DNA of 64,000 bases from Leisingera sp. M658 (GTDB lineage: Bacteria > Pseudomonadota > Alphaproteobacteria > Rhodobacterales > Rhodobacteraceae). The stretch covers positions 1,814,501-1,878,500 of the forward strand of contig NZ_CP083546.1 of assembly GCF_025144145.1 (NCBI RefSeq), written 5' to 3'. The notes under the pieces were generated by a model. The model was not told the DNA's origin, made no database searches, and saw nothing but the letters and a program-made list of their open reading frames with translations. Position 1 is the stretch's first letter; each line of letters begins with the position of its first letter. Below, one piece after another: positions 7,041 through 10,166 of the stretch. Both the position numbers and the translations under genes were made by a program.

Positions 7041-7044
7041 TCAT
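6991..7044 (-). pseudogene. truncated start of a phage gene downstream of D
   Basis: Seventeen codons (MTKLPDTSWARKGGSRG) open at an ATG that overlaps the stop of the D gene as ATGA, the arrangement expected for the next cistron of a phage tail operon. The frame then stops. The short length and the loss of any further phage-like sequence suggest that this is the remnant of a gene cut at the prophage edge. Confidence 0.35.
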
Positions 7045-8021
7045 GAATTGGCCTTCTCGTTATCGCGTTCGGCTTGGAAACTTGTCGTCAATGTGCCCGC
7101 CAGTGTGTGGGTGACGCTTGTAATCAGCCATTCCCCCTCCAGTTCGGGCTTGATGCCGGTCAGGTTCACTTTGGCCTCGGCCATCAGGTCACCCCAAAAG
7201 CCGCCCAGGTTGATATTGACGGTGCCGCTGGCCCGGCCGCTGCGTTCCAGGGCGGCGTCGGCCGCGCGCTGTGCTTCGTTCTGGGACGGGTAGCGGTGGC
7301 GCAGCTTCAGCTTCGGGTCTTTGTCTCCGGCTTTGCAGGTCTGCACCTTGGCGGTGCCCAGGTCGGTCCATTCCACAATAACGCAGCCGTATTTGCCGCG
7401 TCCGTTGATCTGCCAGTCACCGGAGGCAATCTGGCTGCGGTGGACGTCAAAGACAGGCAGGTCGGAACCGTCAGCGCCTTTGTTCTCGCCGCGTTTGGCA
7501 AACACCAGGGCACCGCCTGCGGGCTTGGAAACGGCGTCCAGGTCCTGGGCCAGGCGGGTGAGGAAGTTCAGGTCGCTCTCGCTGGTTTGCGCCAGATAGG
7601 CGTAGACGTGGGCCTTCAGGCTGTCGCTGATGACGGCTTTCAGCCCATGCTCCCCAGCGATTTTGCCCACCAGCTCCTCCACGGTGACCTTGTGCCAGGA
7701 GCGGGTTTTCTTGGCGCGGATCCCGCCCAGCATATCGGCGGCCTTGGCTCCGATCGTCATGGTGTCCGGTGCCAGTTCGCCGCTGATTTCATCGACGGTG
7801 AATTGCCCCAGTTCGACCAGGTCGCCGGTGAAGCCCAGGGCAATGTCCAGCTTGGCGCCGGTCGCGGGTAGGGCGACCGCATAGTCGCGGTCGTCAACCT
7901 GGATCTCGGCGCGGTCTGACTTGCTGCCCGCCTCATCGACAATGGTCAGCCCGATAAGCCGGTCGGCAAAGTTGCCGGTGACGTCGGAGCCGTCAGCAAT
8001 GATCCGGAAGGCAATTTTCAT
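7041..8021 (-). CDS. phage late control gene D protein (P2-like tail protein)
   Basis: This 326-residue protein is a complete P2 gpD-type (VgrG-fold) tail hub protein. Landmarks are the N-terminal MKIAFRIIADGSDVTGNFADRL, the beta-rich region IGAKAADMLGGIRAKKTRSW, and the family motif YLAQTSESDLNFLTRLAQDLDAV near residues 145-168. In myovirus tails this hub sits between tube and spike. It follows a cut tail X gene by 3 bp, the order tail X then D seen in many alphaproteobacterial P2/Mu-like prophages. No other tail, head or integrase gene is present, so it is part of a decayed prophage or tail-like particle rather than a working phage. Confidence 0.85.
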   Translation of the reverse strand: MKIAFRIIADGSDVTGNFADRLIGLTIVDEAGSKSDRAEIQVDDRDYAVALPATGAKLDIALGFTGDLVELGQFTVDEISGELAPDTMTIGAKAADMLGGIRAKKTRSWHKVTVEELVGKIAGEHGLKAVISDSLKAHVYAYLAQTSESDLNFLTRLAQDLDAVSKPAGGALVFAKRGENKGADGSDLPVFDVHRSQIASGDWQINGRGKYGCVIVEWTDLGTAKVQTCKAGDKDPKLKLRHRYPSQNEAQRAADAALERSGRASGTVNINLGGFWGDLMAEAKVNLTGIKPELEGEWLITSVTHTLAGTLTTSFQAERDNEKANS

Positions 8022-8024
8022 GAC

Positions 8025-8211
8025 TTACCCCCAAAGCCGCACAGGCTTGCGCACGGTTGCGGGCTGCGTGGCGGGCAGGGTGATTTCCAGCCCTTTCGGC
8101 AAATCCGGGCCAAGCTGGGCCAGACCCGGATTTGCCTCATAGACAGTCACGGCCATATCTTCGCGGCCGTAGTGATCCTTGCAGATCTCATCGATCATAT
8201 CGCCTTCACTA
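8025..8211 (-). pseudogene. phage tail protein X, 5' end cut by an IS5-family element
   Basis: The frame encodes the core of a LysM-like P2 tail X protein (SEGDMIDEICKDHYGRED, then VYEANPGLAQLGPDLPKG and ITLPA). About half a dozen N-terminal residues normally precede EGDMID. The left terminal repeat of the insertion sequence begins at 8212 and replaces them. The only ATG in frame, at 8214-8216, is supplied by that terminal repeat, so any product would start with an IS-derived codon. It is called a pseudogene because its own start, ribosome-binding site and promoter are gone. Confidence 0.75.
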
Positions 8212-8572
8212 GGCATTGTTGCAGAACTCTGACCGCTAAGGATTCACATCACGAATCCATGCGGTTAGACGGGTTAGATGAGCAAGCCCGCACCTGCCCG
8301 CTACCGCACGACGAATTGGTCCAGCTACAACGATGCGCTCAGGAAGCGCGGGTCGCTTCTGATCCGGTTGGACAAAGAGATGACCTGGCTCGCGCCGCAT
8401 GAAGGGCGACCGGGGCGTCCACCAGTCTTCTCGAACTCGGCGATCCAGTTCTGCCTGTCGATCAAGGTTCTGTTCAAGTTGCCACTCCGGCAGACCGCCG
8501 GGATGGTCGCCAGCCTTTTGCACCTGTGGACTGGCCCGTTCCCGATTTCTCTACACTGTGCCGCCGGCAGAG

Positions 8573-8615
8573 TGAGATGGGACCGTGGCCCCAGTGGGGC
8601 CGCGTAAGCCCATAG
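8573..8615. repeat. palindromic insert B in the IS5 transposase
   Basis: About 43 bp interrupt the transposase between CRRQ and TLAVQIPYRRAD. The insert is a nested palindrome. The outer arms are ATGGG (8577-8581) and CCCAT (8609-8613). The inner stem is GGCCCC (8587-8592) and GGGGCC (8596-8601) around an AGT loop. Its flanks differ from those of the four neighbouring elements. Confidence 0.6.
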
Positions 8616-8670
8616 AACGCTGGCCGTCCAGATCCCGTATCGCCGCGCCGATGGTCCGTTGAACCTGCGT

Positions 8671-8709
8671 CCCCTCTCGGGACATTGCTATGCAATGCCC
8701 TGCCGGGCA
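8671..8709 (-). repeat. small palindromic element A, copy 1
   Basis: A 39-bp net insertion in the IS5 transposase. It has CCCCTCTC at one end, TGCCGGGCA at the other and a stem CATTGC/GCAATG with loop TAT, extended by GGG/CCC. Orientation is reversed relative to copies 2 and 3. It keeps the reading frame open. Confidence 0.75.
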
Positions 8710-8791
8710 ACGGACAGCACCGGGATCAAGTTCCTTGGCGATGGTGAGTGGCAGGCCCGCAAGCACGGCGTTCAGGGGCGACGCCAATCGC

Positions 8792-8829
8792 TGCCCGGCA
8801 GTTGATTGCAGAGCAATCAATGAGAGGGG
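8792..8829 (+). repeat. small palindromic element A, copy 2
   Basis: TGCCCGGCAG at 8792-8801, a perfect 8-bp stem TTGATTGC/GCAATCAA with loop AGA at 8802-8820, then GAGAGGGG at 8822-8829. The net insertion is 39 bp, in frame but with two TGA stops, between codons for RRQ and WRKVHLAMD of the transposase. Confidence 0.78.
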
Positions 8830-8883
8830 CGCAAGGTGCATCTTGCGATGGATGCTGCCACGTCTGACATCCGTGCTGTCCCT

Positions 8884-8923
8884 TGTCCGGCAGGCGATTT
8901 GCAAAGCAAATCTGACGAGAGGG
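8884..8923 (+). repeat. small palindromic element A, copy 3
   Basis: TGTCCGGCAG at 8884-8893, a 7-bp stem GATTTGC/GCAAATC with loop AAA at 8896-8912, then GAGAGGG at 8917-8923. The net insertion is about 42 bp, in frame and without stops, between codons for DIRAV and EFTPSRDG of the transposase. Confidence 0.75.
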
Positions 8924-8945
8924 AATTCACCCCCAGCCGCGACGG

Positions 8946-8985
8946 CCCCTCTCGTGGTTATGCTGCGCAAACCACTGCCGGGCAG
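8946..8985 (-). repeat. small palindromic element A, copy 4
   Basis: CCCCTCTC at 8946-8953, a stem GTGGTT/AACCAC continued by TGC/GCA with one bulged A, loop TGC, then TGCCGGGCAG at 8976-8985. It is in the same orientation as copy 1. The net insertion is about 41 bp, so it shifts the transposase frame. Confidence 0.75.
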
Positions 8986-9460
8986 TGGACAGCCCGGTCC
9001 TGCCGGAACTGCGCGACCAGAGTCCGAAGGACGAAGAGATCGGCAGCGTGACTGCAGACGGGGCCTATGACACGCGCCGTTGCCACTCCGCCATCATCAA
9101 GCGTGGGCCGTCCCGATTATCCCTATCCGCAAGAATGGCCAGCCGTGGAAAGAAAACTGCCCGGCGGCACAGGTCAGAAACGAAACCTTGCGCGCCACCC
9201 GGCACTACGGCCGGGCCTTCTGGAAACGCTGGACAGGATACCACGCCCGGAGCCGGGTCGAGGCAAAGATGCGCTGCTTGAAGGCATTCGGCGAACGCAT
9301 CGCCGCAAGAGACCCTGGTAGCCAAACCGCTGAAATCCACATCCGCATCGCCCTCATCAATCGCTTCAATGCACTCGGCACCGCCGAGATCGTCCGCGTC
9401 GCCTAAGTTCAGAGGGGAAAGGGGTAGTCAGGCCTCAAGAGGGAGTTTTGCAACAACGCC

Positions 9461-9849
9461 GCGGCAATGCACGAAGTCATATGACCAGACATGGTTGCGC
9501 CGTTGTGGCCGAAGACGCGCACACGATCCATCGTTCAGCCAGAGCCGTCCCTTTTTCGGCTGTTTCATTGGTACTTTCAGCCCCTCTCGCCGCCACAGCC
9601 TTTCGACCCGCTTGTCATTCACATGCCAGCCAGCGTCCCTCAGCAAAGCCGCAATCCGACGATAGCCATATCGACCGTATTGTCCCGCCTGCTCGATCAT
9701 GCCGGCAGCCAATCGTTCTTCATCAGCGCGGCCTACTGGCACTTTGCGCTGCGTGGATCGATGCTGTCTCAGAACCCGGCATGCCCGGCGCTCCGGGCTG
9801 TGCAGTTCAGCACGAACGCGATCAATGCAAGCGCGGCGGCGAGCGGGGC
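9461..9849 (-). pseudogene. IS3-family transposase orfB, 3' part deleted
   Basis: The reading frame gives the N-terminal part of an IS3 orfB: YGRYGYRRIAALLRDAGW, VNDKRVERLWRREGLKVP, then RNHVWSYDFVHCR, the entry to the DDE core. At this point the IS5 terminal repeat begins. The catalytic Asp-Asp-Glu residues are missing, so no active transposase can be made. In intact elements orfB is expressed by frameshifting from orfA. Confidence 0.8.
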
Positions 9850-10166
9850 TTAGAAGTTTCCCTTCGCAGCTTCCGCCAAAATCAACTTGTCCAGCGTCAA
9901 GTCAGACACCGCCTTTCTCAGCCGTTCATTTTCCTTCTGAAGACGCTTCAGTTCTTTCAGCTGGTCCGTGCCCATTCCACCGTACCCTCAGCATCACGCT
10001 TGAACCAATGGCGCTGCGATGCTTCGATCTTCCAGCGATAAGACGTCTGTTCAGTCACACCAATCTGACGGATCGCATCCAGACGCGGCATACCTTGCCC
10101 AGTCAGAACCTCAACTTGCCGTAACTTCGTGACAATCTCCTCGGGCTTTGGCCGTTTGTTGGCCAT
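9850..10166 (-). pseudogene. IS3-family orfA with a palindromic insert
   Basis: The start MANKRPKPEEIVTKLRQVEV and IRQIGVTEQTSYRW are the helix-turn-helix part of a common IS3 orfA. After YRW the frame runs into foreign residues and a stop. The expected continuation (YGGMGTDQLKELKRLQKENE, ending AAKGNF) resumes in another frame. The disturbance is a ~44-bp palindromic sequence replacing about 6 bp near 9985-10028. The gene is therefore frameshifted. Confidence 0.8.
9985..10028. repeat. palindromic insert C in IS3 orfA
   Basis: About 44 bp replace the expected six bases of orfA. Outer arms AGCATC (9990-9995) and GATGCT (10018-10023) pair, with CGC/GCG inside and a longer apex. The CCCTC at one edge faintly recalls the CCCCTCTC flank of element A, but relatedness is not shown. 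Confidence 0.5.

Follow-up and report, generated by a model that had tools for sequence, protein, structure and literature searches.

A large, apparently unnamed family of ~40-base palindromic mobile elements, mainly of Rhodobacterales, whose recognisable sites lie nearly always inside transposase and recombinase genes of insertion sequences

Hairpin-forming inserts in coding sequence include the bypassing elements (byps) of yeast mitochondria, which lie in one orientation and in working genes. In alphaproteobacteria, the CGTC repeats are common short palindromes for which no dedicated transposase is known, and the Rickettsia RPE occur in varied genes and are partly translated (PMC3733652); Rhodobacter and Roseobacter are not mentioned in the main text of the paper on CGTC repeats (PMC3733652). 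Here we describe what is apparently a large, unnamed family of mobile elements of ~40 bases, found mainly in Rhodobacterales. An earlier note on this DNA named no family for them and, likewise, no description was found in the open-licence PMC literature.

In the window, that is, the whole stretch of 64,000 nucleotides analysed, that note had reported four flank-hairpin-flank copies, in both orientations, within one IS5 transposase gene. All four were found where it had placed them (Table 1), and comparison with uninterrupted copies gave net insert sizes of 39, 39, 42 and 41 bp. Four instances of CCCTCTC-N18-34-CTGCC are present in the 64-kb window, where 0.36 would be expected, and 100 shuffled versions never contained as many as four. 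On either side of the inserts, the transposase fragments match NF033579 (left, E 5.2e-21; right, E 1.4e-26), in each case under the model's whole-protein cut-off, as is expected for fragments. An Rfam scan of window positions 8100-9700 (E up to 1) gave a single match, far under the cut-off and outside the elements.

Table 1. The interrupted IS5-family gene of the window and its hairpin inserts; element coordinates run from CCCTCTC to GCARYG or the equivalent
Feature	Position in window	Strand	Remarks
IS5-family insertion sequence, broken transposase gene, hairpin host	8212..9461	+	ends GGCATTGTTGCARAACTC-like, by eye
Hairpin element 1, 41 nt	8672..8712	+	stem GGG-a-CATTGC / GCAATG-CCC, loop TAT; net +39 bp vs uninterrupted copies
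Hairpin element 2, 40 nt	8789..8828	-	stem TTGATTGC / GCAATCAA, loop TCT; net +39 bp vs Pseudosulfitobacter
Hairpin element 3, 43 nt	8881..8923	-	stem GATTTGC / GCAAATC, loop TTT; net +42 bp
Hairpin element 4, 41 nt	8947..8987	+	stem GTGGTT-a-TGC / GCA-AACCAC, loop TGC; seamless, GACGGC^GACAGC
Hairpin insert of other type, 43 bp, same IS5 gene	8571..8613	+	GTGAGATGGGAC-stem-AGT-stem-GTAAGCCCAT

The note had further stated that removing the four inserts and repairing two small deletions restores the gene. The interruption itself was borne out, but the gene contains a further hairpin of 43 bp (Table 1) and the deletions are polymorphic among copies. Seven near-complete copies of this IS, 99-100% identical and including that of the window, are present in the host genome; a deletion of 7 bp or of 1 bp is present in every one of them, two having both deletions, and the four hairpins are found in 7 of 7. 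No hairpin-free copy occurred among the 52 matches listed (40 of 73 candidates scored). These copies, although broken several times, have multiplied, which points to a transposase supplied in trans.

Next to the window IS lies a minus-strand, truncated IS3-like gene (window 9462-10166), and genes resembling phage tail genes lie to its left (window 7041-8216), both identified by eye from the ORF list. A rearranged copy at G000:C1:3405558-3406398 (L150-L152) has adjoining segments in opposite orientations and one breakpoint at or beside hairpin 2; the hairpins may promote inversions. The additional 43-bp hairpin represents a second kind of insert, ATGGGCTTACGC-stem-ACT-stem-ACGGTCCCATCTCAC, which was seen in the window IS and in genome G024 (L355). 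In the latter (about 1500-1547 and 1725-1765) it lies within what is, by eye, an IS3 transposase gene, and another copy of this kind and a further palindrome appear nearby. The exact pattern of the second kind was detected in 4 of 149 genomes, in two of them without the hairpin.

The elements of the main family are laid out as a fixed CCCTCTC, a variable complementary stem with a 3-nt loop in the commonest class, and the fixed 13-nt 3' segment CTGCCGGGCARYG, in which a small second hairpin is possible; the right end of window element 3 has diverged to GGACAAGG. Among 183 distinct exact-pattern elements, lengths range from 34 to 50 nt with 41 nt as the commonest (82/183), and 63 of the 69 distinct 41-mers have one unpaired A in the 5' arm. 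The stems, read in the earlier note as compensated between fixed flanks, do covary across a wide set of elements. In an alignment of 22 elements both sides change in 7 of 9 pairs, and the covariation score is 0.491 as compared to 0.156 for shuffled and at most 0.080 for slid alignments, element kinship being ignored; the number of further pair types in this test was not above that of the shuffles (106 of 500). The 69 distinct 41-mers were aligned in register by length in order to avoid alignment bias. Watson-Crick pairs occupy 93.6% of their cells, compared to 69.2% (maximum 74.4%) after exchange of the right arms, again ignoring element kinship, and at most 25.6% are paired when the arms are slid out of register. 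G-T cells amount to 2.3%, a proportion that does not tell DNA from RNA. Folding of window elements 1-4 individually yielded z values of -1.9, -4.0, -1.1 and -1.0, so that the case for structure rests on covariation. Between the two options left by the note, a mobile element or a structured nucleic acid under selection, mobility is upheld by the comparisons below, whereas selected structure is not, as some single elements fold no better than many of their shuffles. These freely varying yet paired stems constitute a natural data set on hairpin diversification.

The inserts were suggested in the note to be later arrivals, and copies in relatives agree with this: on alignment, all four are missing from the Pseudosulfitobacter counterpart of the window IS, and in that of Leisingera M527 p3 only insert 2 is present, with 1, 3 and 4 absent. 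The comparison of empty sites and target duplications that it had proposed revealed empty sites in close relatives and no duplication. Alignment with three relatives shows insert 4 as a clean gap of 41 bp, flanked by GACGGC and GACAGC and free of duplicated bases; at inserts 1-3, the junctions are a few bases off a clean 41 bp. No IS copy known to be functional and carrying the same segments was found among the relatives compared; the M527 p4 copy, itself interrupted, carries all four and an additional 41-bp element. In P. turbinis (L033, about 2000-2041) the site of insert 2 is occupied by a similarly organised hairpin, 39 bp long, whose stem differs and which leaves the frame open by eye.

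An IS5 of the host genome that contains one element (L002) is 98.2% identical in its matched part to a Phaeobacter inhibens plasmid copy that is without exactly the 41 bp of the element, at GTGATGATC^GACGCAACT. The copies of Leisingera NJS204 (97.7%) and S132 (97.3%) are also empty at this site and have elements elsewhere in the same IS, the NJS204 insertion measuring 40 bp, and in other copies (L040, L086, L268, L312) the site contains other stems. Such empty and differently filled copies indicate seamless entry into recently diverged copies, with some sites favoured; part of the site sharing may be due to recombination rather than to fresh insertion. Insertion is precise, of 40-41 bp, in both orientations and without target duplication.

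A covariance-model search, also proposed in the note, returned hundreds of matches with covarying stems. The model, built from 22 distinct elements, detected at least 95 matches in the host genome at E up to 0.001 (150 of 7335 candidates scored), in which the pattern CCCTCTC-N18-34-CTGCCGG occurs 65 times and a reversed-pattern control once. In a draw of Rhodobacterales, 73 of 149 genomes and 43 of 72 genera had matches, and of 192 genomes drawn class-wide, 7 had matches, three of them from the family of the host and the others representing 4 of 189, with one of these four flagged as 10% contaminated. A pattern scan of named genomes found at least 119 stretches, and 71 of the 80 titles listed are, by their names, presumably Rhodobacterales. 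Among the nine other titles listed, Acidobacteria, Pleomorphomonas, Nocardioidaceae, Rothia and Synechococcus fail the hairpin score, and Vreelandella and Labrenzia pass it. This score removed 18 of 144 sites, some of which look real; 106 of 150 matches were carried forward, obvious duplicates having been removed by hand. A phage origin was considered and rejected; viral contigs contained 13 pattern stretches, 8 of them above the hairpin score, and their genes were counted in the pooled tally only. In genome G075, copies of one repeated sequence (L334-L341) hold three or four elements each, including some with short stems such as TGTATTTTCAATACA.

The most surprising part, which lay beyond the view of a single-window reading, is the near-confinement of the elements to transposase genes. 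Sites whose gene is identifiable nearly always interrupt an IS transposase or recombinase; many unrelated families are represented, and in some IS several elements occur together. For 98 sites, the longest open piece touching each element was scanned against NCBIfam and Pfam, the pooled tallies giving members per family and not their union. At the top of the NCBIfam tally (25 of 46 families listed) are IS3 (17), IS481 (14), IS1182 (8), two IS5 models (7 and 7) and IS256 (6), and it also contains IS21, IS66, IS110 and one integron-integrase/XerD-like piece; that of Pfam (25 of 42 families listed) includes DUF6527 (2 members), a name that does not denote a transposase. When pieces were scanned singly, a transposase or recombinase was identified in 8/10, 7/10 and 4/10, the rest having no useful match except L117. 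In a second site set, 124 pieces match 24 NCBIfam families: TraG and 23 others, which comprise transposases, IS accessory proteins and an IS repressor. Control pieces from the same contigs, more than 2.5 kb from the elements, match 341 families with one IS family of one member among the 25 listed, and the pieces from random host stretches (39 used out of 100) match 49 families, with no transposase among the 25 listed.

Homology labelling seeded with 22 pieces identified 138 of 219 sites and 8 of 244 control positions; the seeds come from element sites themselves, and in two or three cases the label was assigned by eye or from a pooled match (L036); without the seed loci 104 of 185 sites were labelled. 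Pieces from the 81 unlabelled sites (110 of 125 pieces used) match 17 NCBIfam families, all of them transposases, and 19 Pfam families that correspond to transposase and helix-turn-helix domains, with one marginal YscW match. The many pieces without matches are tentatively attributed to wrong frames and decay. Ten long ORF pieces were considered as possible host genes and rejected, as 8 have no match and 2 match transposition genes. The site L117 (1539-1575) neighbours an rmlD-like gene and appears to be in a spacer. Both L117 and L186 (about 560-640) have GGCGGC...GCCGCC hairpins; they have the same right end, CTGCCGGGCAGCGGGACGGG, with TATTT-like sequence after it, and are possibly a related or older spacer repeat. 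In practical terms, the presence of the elements disrupts transposase genes and complicates the annotation of IS.

The target is weak: 219 distinct sites give approximately GYC^GAYG (73% C at -1, 79% G at +0, 69% A at +1 and 84% T or C at +2), with YC^GAY present at 61 of the 219 as compared to 0.56% of background positions. On the bottom strand, the element comes after a loose CRTC, which belongs to the target and not to the element, and terminates in GAGAGGG. A dyad in the target was rejected, as covariation was not consistent and a single z of 4.1 stood isolated, and so was a guide pairing between element and target, for which associations were weak (z up to 6.3 at small effect) and subfamilies explain them at least as well. 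At the median site score, the motif occurs 11.7 times per 1000 positions in IS flanks and 11.6 times in random genome (52.1 and 48.5, respectively, at a laxer score). Since it is about equally dense elsewhere, local sequence alone cannot explain the IS confinement. Confinement despite ordinary motif density would mean either that transposon DNA is marked for insertion or that selective filtering is unusually sharp, and both alternatives are testable in culturable marine bacteria.

That a mobile, IS-nested family exists appears to us very probable. For the whole of these observations we lean slightly towards a family of non-autonomous palindromic mini-elements that are moved in trans via their hairpin and use the IS as vehicle and refuge. 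The enzyme would recognise the hairpin shape together with the fixed flanks, which would let the stems drift while staying paired, and it would presumably act on single-stranded DNA; a single-strand transposition step is a guess, which we offer tentatively. This reading has against it the host's lack of Y1_Tnp, which serves the closest mechanism, the imperfect junctions of inserts 1-3, possible recombination at shared sites, the 81 unlabelled sites, L117 and the weakness of element-target associations. Y1_Tnp (PF01797; REP/IS200 transposase) is absent from the host genome and, in the same draw of 149, it is not associated with the elements (9/73 element-bearing and 8/76 element-free genomes), and therefore some other, candidate hairpin-recognising enzyme is proposed. 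Both results also make improbable a REP/REPIN-like system moved by a Y1 HUH enzyme (RAYT or IS200-type), as do the lack of a GTAG or CGTC tag and the fact that the sites are not extragenic, even though the element-rich genomes G075, G034, G097 and G117 do carry Y1_Tnp and a tagged, single-strand-competent hairpin with an unpaired base and no target duplication would suit such a system (compare PMC8266576). The palindromic arms could also correspond to old terminal repeats, in which case the elements would be footprints, the fused ends left behind by a longer inserted element. However, 72 of the 84 exact right ends in the host coincide with model matches, and the other 12, of which 3 are element-like and 9 are without adjoining tag and hairpin, revealed no longer form by eye, so that we give this origin very little credit.

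With respect to the IS preference only, and not to the existence of a mobile family, the chief rival to transposition in trans with IS copies as vehicle and refuge is survivorship, by which elements would insert wherever the weak motif occurs, be purged from host genes and working spacers and be left in dispensable, horizontally spread IS genes. The low information of the motif, about 4 bits, is in line with it, and group II introns likewise accumulate in IS, as described for RmInt1 in ISRm2011-2 (PMC5894124). We nevertheless find survivorship rather unlikely, since it predicts many spacer elements, whereas among the sites annotated only L117 and perhaps L186 look so, and since IS genes make up a small share of random positions (8/244). 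We are as doubtful of a hyperparasite or anti-transposon insertion system that would place hairpins in more than 10 unrelated IS families by a cue beyond local sequence. Confinement to transposase genes over many families would also be expected of a host defence silencing transposons through hairpins placed in their genes, but four elements in the window IS, and up to four in the G075 copies, exceed the needs of silencing, and hairpin-bearing IS copies still multiply, which renders a defence most improbable. Finally, the transposases might still work, the hairpins being tolerated via ribosome bypass or removal from RNA: in a permissive test, 184 of 219 sites have flanks that read open in a single consistent frame, and where an IS3 copy contains two elements, IS3-like pieces lie on either side. 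We consider this scarcely credible, as the elements occur in both orientations (114 and 70 of 184), even within one gene, and window-IS copies with extra frame-breaking deletions multiplied too, so that supply in trans suffices.

Among known systems, the REP/REPIN resemble the present family as short, tagged, multi-copy and non-autonomous hairpins with an unpaired or mismatched stem position, as described in PMC8266576 and PMC3733652. They differ in having GTAG beside the palindrome in place of the CCCTCTC and CTGCCGGGCARYG flanks, in being mostly extragenic, whereas the sites recognised here are in transposition genes, and in their link to a RAYT-type Y1 enzyme, which the host genome is without. 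The CGTC repeats have a CGTC tag beside the stem, which is not part of the element consensus, 4-5-nt loops and a location mostly downstream of genes. The RPE are likewise palindromes inside protein genes, but the lengths found here mostly break the frame (41 nt in 82/183) and the genes are transposases. The absence of duplication, the stem that keeps its pairing and has an unpaired A, and the fixed flanks are reminiscent of the single-strand transposition of IS200/IS605 and REP elements (PMC8266576); a CRTC is preferred on the bottom strand, but loosely, and the Y1 HUH enzyme of IS200/IS605 is absent from the host genome. The nearest IS-dwelling precedent is RmInt1, a mobile element with its natural target in an IS, ISRm2011-2 (PMC5894124), which is however a full ribozyme with a reverse transcriptase and has one main IS target, as opposed to gene-free 40-mers in many IS families. 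MITEs are also short, non-autonomous and multi-copy, but here there is no target duplication and the terminal CCCTCTC and GCARYG do not form inverted repeats, and byps are likewise hairpins in coding sequence, from which the present elements differ by their two orientations. To our knowledge, an IS-gene habitat has no precedent at a size of ~40 nt. While the features that define GTAG REPs, CGTC repeats, RPE and MITEs were absent as far as tested, the family belongs to the broad kind of short palindromic mobile repeats.
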